Shown here piece after piece: positions 7,828 to 10,161 of a DNA stretch of 13,566 nucleotides. The notes under the pieces were generated by a model, which was given only the letters and a program-made list of their open reading frames with translations, was not told the origin of the DNA and ran no database searches. Both the position numbers and the translations under genes were made by a program. This stretch comes from Thermococci archaeon (GTDB lineage Archaea > Hadarchaeota > B88-G9), in contig QMUK01000028.1 of NCBI GenBank assembly GCA_003660555.1, positions 1 to 13,566 of the forward strand, in the 5' to 3' direction. How positions within the stretch are numbered: position 1 is the stretch's first letter; every line of letters starts with the position of its first letter.

Positions 7828-7976
7828 TGAAGTGGAAGATGTACATCCTGAAAGGAGACAAAGTAATGAGGAGAAACCCATTCTGCCCTAGATGTGGTTT
7901 GGGAGTGTTCATGGCAGACCACGGAGACAGATATGCCTGCGGGAAATGCGGTTACACACAATGGAAGAGGAAGTAA
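7827..7976 (+). CDS. rps27ae: Small-subunit ribosomal protein S27ae (zinc-binding)
   Basis: This gene encodes 49 residues, the usual archaeal length; in eukaryotes the same protein is made as a ubiquitin fusion. Reading from ATG 7827, the zinc site is CxxC at 20-23 (CPRC) and at 38-41 (CGKC). The family segments [11 protein letters not shown] and [15 protein letters not shown] are clear. GGGAGGTT at about 7812-7818 serves as SD. The gene overlaps rps24e by one base (TAATG) and ends 16 nt before kae1. Confidence 0.96.
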
Positions 7977-7992
7977 GTTTGGAGGAGGCTGT

Positions 7993-8970
7993 TTGATCTC
8001 TCTTGGAATAGAAGGGACTGCCTACAAACTCGGAGTCGGAATAGTAACAGATAAGGGAGAAATACTAGCTAATGTATCCAGAGTGTTTTCCCCTAAGAAA
8101 GGGGGGTTGAAGCCAAGAGAGGCAGCCCAATACTATGCTGAGAACATATCTTCTCTAATAAGGGAATCTCTAGAAAAGGCTAATTTGAGTGCTAGGGACA
8201 TAGACATAGTCTCTTTCTCTCAAGGACCTGGTATGGGGCCATGTCTTAGAGTGGTGGCAACTGCTGCTAGGTCCCTTTCCCTGGGCCTAGGAATTCCCAT
8301 AGTTGGAGTCAATCACGGAGTGGCTCACATAGAGATAGGAAGACTCATTACGAAATTGGAGGATCCCCTAGTACTCTTCGTTAGTGGAGGAAACACTCAA
8401 GTCATAACTTTTCAAGACAGGAGATACAGAGTAATCGGAGAAACTATGGACATGGCCTTAGGAAACTGTATAGACAGATTGGGTAGAGAACTGGGGCTGG
8501 AATTTCCTTGGGCCCTTTCGGTTCAAGAGTTAGCTAAGAGAGGGGAGAAGTTCATCGAGTTGCCATACATCGTAAAGGGCATGGAGCTCTCCTTCTCTGG
8601 ATTGTTAACATCAGCTTTAGAAAAAATAGGGAAAGTGAGACCAGAGGATCTATGTTACAGCTTTCTGGAAACGTCATTTGCCATGTTGACTGAAGTGGCA
8701 GAGAGAGGATTGACACTCACTGGAAAAGAAGAATTGTTGCTCTGCGGAGGAGTTGGAGCCCTAGATAGACTCAAAGAAATGCTCAAGGAGATGGTCTCAG
8801 AACACGGGGCTAAGTTAGGAGTAACCCCTCCCGAATATTCCGTTGACAACGGCGCAATGATAGCATGGACCGGGATTCTATATTATAAGTCTGGGACGAA
8901 ACACAAAATAGAGGAGACTGTCGTTAAACAGAGATTCCGAATAGAGGAGGTAGAGGTCAATTGGCGCTAA
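7993..8970 (+). CDS. kae1: KEOPS subunit Kae1 (tRNA t6A37 threonylcarbamoyltransferase)
   Basis: Kae1 moves threonylcarbamoyl from its AMP ester to A37 of ANN-reading tRNAs within the KEOPS complex. From TTG 7993 the protein has 325 residues, the family length. Metal ligands are present: His 108 and His 112 (NHGVAHIEIGR) and Asp 285 (SVDNGAMIAWTG). Nucleotide-site blocks VSGGNTQVI (130-138), DMALGNCIDRLGRELG (153-168), SFSGLLTSAL (200-209) and CGGVGALDRL (251-260) are also there. The start has GGAGGAGG 4-5 nt upstream. Oddly, the segment that usually reads PGGP in archaeal Kae1 and bacterial TsaD reads PWALS here (172-176), possibly from two compensating indels. The gene is not fused to bud32 but overlaps it by 10 nt. 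Confidence 0.95.
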   Translation: MISLGIEGTAYKLGVGIVTDKGEILANVSRVFSPKKGGLKPREAAQYYAENISSLIRESLEKANLSARDIDIVSFSQGPGMGPCLRVVATAARSLSLGLGIPIVGVNHGVAHIEIGRLITKLEDPLVLFVSGGNTQVITFQDRRYRVIGETMDMALGNCIDRLGRELGLEFPWALSVQELAKRGEKFIELPYIVKGMELSFSGLLTSALEKIGKVRPEDLCYSFLETSFAMLTEVAERGLTLTGKEELLLCGGVGALDRLKEMLKEMVSEHGAKLGVTPPEYSVDNGAMIAWTGILYYKSGTKHKIEETVVKQRFRIEEVEVNWR

Positions 8971-9605
8971 TGAGCAAAGGAGCTGAAGCAGATTTATATC
9001 TCGAGGAATACGAGATATCTCCAGGAAATAAGATGAAAGTTGTAGTAAAATTCAGAAAAGAGAAGAAATACAGGGTAAAACAGCTAGACAGAAAGATAAG
9101 GAGTACTAGAACTAGAAAAGAATCTAAATTGATGCATTCTGCCAGAGAAAATGGAGTTCCAGTTCCTTGGATATTGGAGGTAGATCCAGAGAATTTCTAC
9201 ATAGTCATGGAATACGTGGATGGGAAAAGGTTGAGAGAGATCATGCTATCCAAAGAGTTAAGCAAAGAGAGCGTCAATGAACTATTCAGAGAAATAGGAA
9301 GAATTGTCGGAAAATTGCACTCATCGGGAATAGTTCACGGAGATCTCACCACAGGAAACATGATACTATCCGAAGGCGGTGAGCTTTACCTAATAGACTT
9401 CGGCCTAGGGGAATTCTCCAAGAGAGCAGAGGACTTCGCTGTAGATATATACGTCCTCAAGCGAACACTAGAGAGCACTCATTACGAGTACAAGGAAACA
9501 TTAAAGTACTTCCTGGAAGGCTATTCTCAGACATTCGAAAAGGTGAGAGAAGTCCTAGAGAAGTTGAAAGACGTAGAGAGGAGGGGTAGATACGTCGCTA
9601 GGTAG
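8961..9605 (+). CDS. bud32: KEOPS subunit Bud32 (small atypical kinase/ATPase)
   Basis: Bud32 is the ATPase/kinase-like subunit that sits next to Kae1 in KEOPS. The 214-residue protein has the shortened kinase fold of the family: GAEADLYL at 7-14, Lys 30 in VVVKFRKEKKYR, LDRKIRSTRTRKESKLM at 42-58, IVMEYVDGKRLR at 81-92, catalytic HGDLTTGN at 126-133 (Asp 128), DFGLGE at 146-151 and the basic RRGRYVAR tail. TTG 8961 follows GAGGAGGT and overlaps the kae1 stop; ATG 8970 is an alternative that would drop three residues. Unlike in several euryarchaea, the two genes are separate. All catalytic residues look intact. Confidence 0.95.
   Translation: MALMSKGAEADLYLEEYEISPGNKMKVVVKFRKEKKYRVKQLDRKIRSTRTRKESKLMHSARENGVPVPWILEVDPENFYIVMEYVDGKRLREIMLSKELSKESVNELFREIGRIVGKLHSSGIVHGDLTTGNMILSEGGELYLIDFGLGEFSKRAEDFAVDIYVLKRTLESTHYEYKETLKYFLEGYSQTFEKVREVLEKLKDVERRGRYVAR
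9580..9586 (+). promoter_or_regulatory. Shine-Dalgarno-like site upstream of the start-less XTP pyrophosphatase gene
   Basis: GGAGGGG near the end of bud32 ends 5 nt before an ACG codon at 9592, the same spacing as at rpl7ae and rps3ae. It is about 20 nt from ATA 9607, so it would favour ACG if it is used. The bases also encode the Arg-rich end of Bud32, so the match may be coincidental. Confidence 0.35.
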
Positions 9606-9606
9606 G

Positions 9607-10161
9607 ATATATTTCATCACCTCCAATAAAGGAAAATACGAAGAGGTGAAAGAGTTCCTGAAGGATGACGTTGAAGTTTTGATGCTGAGGAAGAGATATC
9701 TAGAAATACAGTCTGAGGACCTAGAGGAGATAGCCCTTGAGTCGATGAAGTACCTCTCTAAGGAGTTGAAGTTGCCCATGATGATAGAGGACTCCGGCCT
9801 CTTTATAGATTGCCTCAATGGATTTCCTGGCCCCTATTCTTCTTACATTTTCGAGAAAATAGGGAACAAGGGAATATTAAAGTTGATGTCTGGCGAGGAA
9901 AATAGGAGAGCTAAATTCGTTTCTGTCATAGCCTATTGGGAACCAGAAATAGAGGTCAAGATATTTAAAGGGCAAACCCAAGGCACGATATCAGAGGAGG
10001 AGAGAGGAGAGAAGGGATTTGGATTTGACCCCATCTTCATACCATCGGGCCAAAACAAGACCTTTGGAGAGATGGACAGGGAGGAGAAAAATAGGTTCTC
10101 CCATAGGGGAAAGGCCCTAGAGCAGTTTAAGAGGTGGTTGAATGGCAAGAATGCACGCTAG
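9607..10161 (+). CDS. XTP/dITP pyrophosphatase (HAM1/RdgB family), non-canonical start
   Basis: The enzyme hydrolyses XTP, ITP and dITP to monophosphates, cleaning deaminated purines from the NTP pool. Family motifs are strong: the N-terminal nucleotide-binding block [36 protein letters not shown] in the middle, and [20 protein letters not shown] with [12 protein letters not shown] near the end. The first ATG/GTG/TTG in frame is GTG 9646, which would remove strand 1 and the TSNKGK motif. From an in-frame TAG at 9574 to that GTG no canonical start exists. The coordinates here use ATA 9607 (184 residues, matching the family N-terminus); ACG 9592 (189 residues) has better SD spacing. A sequence error is also possible. 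The 3' end overlaps rps15 by 20 nt. Confidence 0.85.

Follow-up and report, generated by a model that had tools for sequence, protein, structure and literature searches.

The window, a stretch of 13,566 nucleotides from contig QMUK01000028.1 of a Thermococci archaeon (Hadarchaeota), carries bud32 and rdgB in overlapping frames, with rps15 downstream of rdgB (Table 1). The bud32 product is recognised by the NCBIfam model arch_bud32 (TIGR03724; 232.8 bits, cut-off 125). The open rdgB frame extends from 9577 to its stop TAG 10159-10161. From 9607 on, its product covers the Pfam profile PF01725 completely (positions 1-186 of 186; 194 bits, cut-off 22.5), matches the NCBIfam model for XTP/dITP diphosphatase (NF011396; 255.8 bits, cut-off 203) and has PH1917 as best solved relative (E ~1e-53). 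Judged by these matches, the frame encodes a full-length Ham1/RdgB-type protein, for which the hydrolysis of XTP and dITP is predicted. Ahead of bud32, the longest kae1 reading frame (GTG 7894) overlaps a small upstream frame for a CxxC zinc-type protein (region 7894-8000); the kae1 start is likelier located at TTG near 7993, after GGAGG.

Table 1. Features of the bud32-rdgB junction, in positions of the window (SD, Shine-Dalgarno).
Feature	Positions	Strand	Remarks
bud32 (KEOPS kinase/ATPase)	8961..9605	+	TTG start or ATG (8970) start; stop TAG 9603-9605
AGGAGG, SD motif inside bud32 (Arg-Arg-Gly codons)	9579..9584	+	pairing with the 16S 3' end CACCUCCU at -8.6 kcal/mol; ACG at distance 10
rdgB, XTP/dITP pyrophosphatase (Ham1 family)	9592..10161	+	proposed ACG to stop TAG; PF01725 in full length, NF011396
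ACG, proposed rdgB start	9592..9594	+	modal SD spacing; L004 and L039 have ATG at the corresponding RGRY overlap of Bud32
ATA, alternative rdgB start	9607..9609	+	SD -2.5 kcal/mol; ATG or GTG there in L010/L038
Conserved N-terminal stretch	9616..9645	+	N 9625, K 9634, E 9643 (nearly) invariant in 69 homologues
GTG, first canonical codon, rejected start	9646..9648	+	downstream of the invariant residues; weak SD

The rdgB frame and its candidate start codons

The first-pass annotation had reported the absence of ATG, GTG and TTG between the in-frame TAG 9574 and GTG 9646, and direct reading agrees. TAG is followed by 23 codons without a canonical start, which read from 9577 to 9645 AGA GGA GGG GTA GAT ACG TCG CTA GGT AGG ATA TAT TTC ATC ACC TCC AAT AAA GGA AAA TAC GAA GAG. 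By chance alone such a run is not improbable in DNA; what makes it odd is the conserved gene, which must start somewhere. The claim that an essential N-terminal motif is encoded before GTG 9646 was borne out as well. The TxN..K motif of Ham1/RdgB proteins lies in frame (T 9619, N 9625, K 9634) and is kept across 69 homologues. In their alignment, N 9625 is found in 68 of the 69, K 9634 and E 9643 in every one. No canonical start codon preserves this conserved N-terminus. The codons for I-T-S (9616-9624) read ATCACCTCC, identical to the 16S 3' end, so that the mRNA has an anti-SD-like string just past the start. A search for a regulatory fold around the rdgB start gave no significant result (z -0.57).

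The 3' end of the 16S gene of the same genome, read directly, is ...GATCACCTCCT. SD distances were counted up to the start codon, beginning at the base that faces the U of CCUCC, using as reference 116 conserved genes of the genome, each with a single canonical start candidate. These unambiguous starts comprise 55 ATG, 45 TTG and 16 GTG codons, TTG being nearly as frequent as ATG. The commonest distance is 10, exactly that of ACG 9592, and the SD of this codon beats 72% of the unambiguous starts (n=116). Among 4,440 internal codons, 0.8% have an equally strong SD at a distance of 9-12. ATA 9607 is preceded by AGGT (-2.5 kcal/mol, distance 7) and GTG 9646 by a weak SD (-2.7 kcal/mol). The SD pattern of the genome therefore points to ACG rather than ATA.

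The SD-like GGAGGGG noticed earlier was found at 9580-9586, 5 nt before ACG, as described. ACG differs from AUG by one base and has a suitable distance to its SD, a coincidence confounded by the coding of Bud32: the residues RRGRYV are encoded by AGG AGG GGT AGA TAC GTC, the same bases as the SD plus ACG. This was missed in the first-pass annotation. The string has no independent evidential weight, because the Bud32 residues dictate the same bases. As a proof by itself it was rejected, since the junction L048 contains a similar string as Bud32 coding, in addition to a GTG with a second SD. Both upstream candidates overlap the end of bud32 or lie within a few nucleotides of it, as is typical of coupled genes. 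ACG 9592 is located 14 nt inside bud32, and ATA 9607 follows one base past the stop, as had been read before.

Equivalent junctions and the proposed ACG start

A comparison of the junction with relatives had been suggested; it was made with archaea more distant than the genus and family of the window genome. In L004, the sole canonical start codon is an ATG at the same overlap, formed by a Tyr codon TAT and the following G; AGGAGG again stands at distance 10. L039 has an ATG at the RGRY overlap of Bud32 (SD -4.4 kcal/mol, distance 7), and so has L015, which offers a TTG as an alternative. Other archaea thus plausibly start rdgB at the bud32 overlap. L048, from a relative within the phylum (G004, family f2), keeps GGGGAAGATACG, yet carries GGGAGG and a GTG further downstream. 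Next to L048, the junction in the window is shorter by 9 nt and lacks the second SD and start. Start codons of rdgB in distant relatives are GTG, ATG or TTG, and CTG in G028, an archaeon of another phylum. The rdgB gene of G028 (L064; G028:C89) overlaps bud32 and, ahead of the conserved N-terminus, contains none of the three canonical start codons; its CTG is preceded by the SD GGGAGGU (-10.3 kcal/mol, distance 10).

Translation of rdgB probably begins at the near-cognate ACG 9592. What we infer from the sequence is that initiation takes place at this codon, that the lineage has lost a second SD and start, and that translation is coupled to bud32. The usual initiator tRNA would decode ACG, inserting methionine. 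AGGAGG in the bud32 mRNA would pair with the 16S 3' end and set ACG in the P site, and ribosomes ending bud32 at 9605 may contribute through coupling. The start site may arise from the C-terminal Bud32 motif RRGRY(V/A), whose other frame would yield an SD and AYG: a Tyr codon TAT, as in L004 and L039, gives ATG, while TAC, as in the window, gives ACG. A mismatch in the second position is expected to make a start weak. Further points against ACG are that the other clear near-cognate cases of the genome are CTG, not ACG, and that L048 retains its SD-like string despite a downstream GTG with an SD of its own.

A lax start choice due to missing aIF1 was rejected, since the window genome has SUI1, and so do 27 of 28 genomes in the phylum. 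No special initiator tRNA was seen in the part of the genome scanned, which contains two tRNA-Met(CAU) genes. On both counts there is no sign of altered machinery.

Genes without a usual start and alternative readings

About 945 kb of the 1.295 Mb window genome were surveyed against the phylum relative G001, covering ~347 conserved genes. The counts rest on overlap filtering and inspection by eye and are partly a matter of judgement. Many start-less reading frames of the first pass were antisense frames, rRNA or alignments overrunning the start and were removed; a few weaker flags were set aside as doubtful alignments. Only rdgB, pyrG and argF clearly lack a canonical start near the conserved N-terminus. 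In pyrG (CTP synthase; G000:C40:2448, plus strand), no ATG, GTG or TTG precedes the conserved N-terminus. The protein would read (L)TKYIIVTGG from a CTG in the CTGA by which the gene overlaps its predecessor, behind the SD AGGAGG (-8.6 kcal/mol, distance 11). In argF (ornithine carbamoyltransferase; L200, G000:C68, minus strand, ~4231), the first 21 codons include no canonical start, and a CTG follows the SD GGGGUG (-7.1 kcal/mol) at distance 10. By their sequences, both genes seem to start at CTG in a way similar to rdgB, which is not the sole oddity of its genome.

Two further cases are probable. A cbf5/truB-type pseudouridine synthase gene (G000:C3, minus strand, 7533) has ATA behind the SD GGGGUG at distance 10, its first canonical codon being a TTG ten codons later without SD. 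A phosphodiesterase gene (C37:9453) has CTG where the relative used for comparison has GTG. In the relative G001, a serA-like gene (G001:C3:245262, plus strand) contains only CTG near the expected start.

The first-pass annotation had left ACG, ATA, reinitiation and a base error open. The stronger SD, together with the ATG at equivalent positions elsewhere, favours ACG. The main biological rival is ATA 9607, where ribosomes ending bud32 at TAG 9603-9605 would reinitiate one base downstream at a near-cognate AUA. Reinitiation in Haloferax depends strongly on an overlap or a very short distance (PMC10666635), which the single base between stop and ATA would provide. Methionine occupies the aligned position in L010 (ATG) and L038 (GTG), and ATA may also serve as the start of cbf5 in this genome, there with a good SD. 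ATA 9607 has no good SD, and most of the homologues inspected begin at least one codon further upstream, so that a start at this codon is regarded as unlikely.

Less likely still is an assembly base error or a minority variant concealing a canonical start of the organism. The contig belongs to an assembly of 150 contigs with 91% completeness, and a single base would suffice for either codon. The change of AGG to ATG at 9604 considered earlier would indeed abolish the bud32 stop, but would add only 8 codons to Bud32, up to TAA 9627. Two cheaper changes had not been named. T at 9593 turns ACG into ATG, as found in L004 and L039, and is silent in Bud32 (TAC to TAT); G at 9609 turns ATA into ATG outside bud32. 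A missing base near 9607 restoring the GTG of relatives was rejected, as two changes would be needed and still give GTA. A high error rate of the assembly is not supported: in 258 conserved proteins, 82,708 aligned residues contained no premature stop of the error type and one possible frameshift, junk extensions before starts excepted. A rough estimate yields at most ~0.2 lost starts in the genes tested, compared with three seen, and the other two genes, pyrG and argF, have CTG with well-spaced SDs. An error may be considered for rdgB; as a general cause of missing starts it is unlikely, because two other genes behave alike and the error rate shows no sign of being high.

A start at GTG 9646, giving an N-terminally short protein, is very unlikely, because it would sacrifice the three (nearly) invariant residues N, K and E, and with them the first strand of the fold. 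Its SD is weak, and the codons upstream would not be expected to retain the family sequence. GTG 9646 is the first canonical codon in frame, and automatic annotation might well pick it, since the shorter protein remains above the family cut-off (231.6 versus 203 bits). A ribosomal frameshift at the bud32 end, producing a Bud32-RdgB fusion that needs no rdgB start codon, finds room in the overlap of the two frames and in an rdgB frame open back to 9577, but is hardly credible: nearly all relatives inspected have an rdgB start codon of their own, no slippery site was recognised, and ~18 nt separate the SD from the bud32 stop, a much longer distance than in prfB frameshifting.

Near-cognate starts in known systems

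Taken together with the survey, an ACG start of rdgB would fit a wider pattern, which is more interesting than rdgB alone. Tentatively, the lineage may tolerate near-cognate starts (CTG, ACG, ATA) as a regular component of its start codons, in ~1% of its genes, given a well-spaced SD. Gene finders limited to ATG, GTG and TTG would then mis-start such proteins, and a synonymous Tyr codon in bud32 would set ATG or ACG for rdgB. If this is true, the list of start codons that an archaeal housekeeping gene plausibly uses grows by ACG, and rdgB, pyrG and argF of one genome would be mis-started by tools accepting only the canonical codons. The junction would offer a testable case of a gene whose start codon depends on which synonymous codon is used in the gene before it. 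It would also bear on the strictness of start-codon checking in archaea when the SD is strong.

Near-cognate starts are already known, and an archaeal housekeeping gene starting at ACG would add a rare example to them. CUG accounts for 0.024% of bacterial starts with 0.86% of the AUG efficiency (PMC11497404), and AUU for ~0.3% (PMC10666635). Rare switches to CUG and AUU occur in groups of related prokaryotes (PMC5622118). A literature search for bacterial or archaeal ACG starts, restricted to open-licence papers and hence a weak negative, returned no paper. The bacterial CUG and AUU starts resemble the proposed rdgB start in being one base away from AUG; they differ in that rdgB is archaeal and the mismatch of its proposed ACG is in the second position.

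An ATT start has been proposed for the Asgard archaeal tubulin AtubA of Kariarchaeaceae (PMC13394414). The reasoning is the same as for rdgB: the annotated N-terminus is too short, and a near-cognate start that has a plausible ribosome-binding site would regain a conserved N-terminal strand. The codon is ATT in AtubA and would be ACG in rdgB, whose SD and proposed start are located within the gene ahead of it. In archaea, serial genes that overlap or abut can be coupled by termination-reinitiation (PMC10666635). The bud32-rdgB pair shares this arrangement and differs by its near-cognate start and an overlap of 14 nt, if ACG is used; the coupling is putative. A further likeness is offered by the bud32-rdgB junctions of L004 and L039, whose start overlies the Tyr codon of Bud32 in the other frame and whose SD is supplied by Arg/Gly codons. 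The window departs from them by the synonymous exchange of TAT for TAC, which turns ATG into the proposed ACG.
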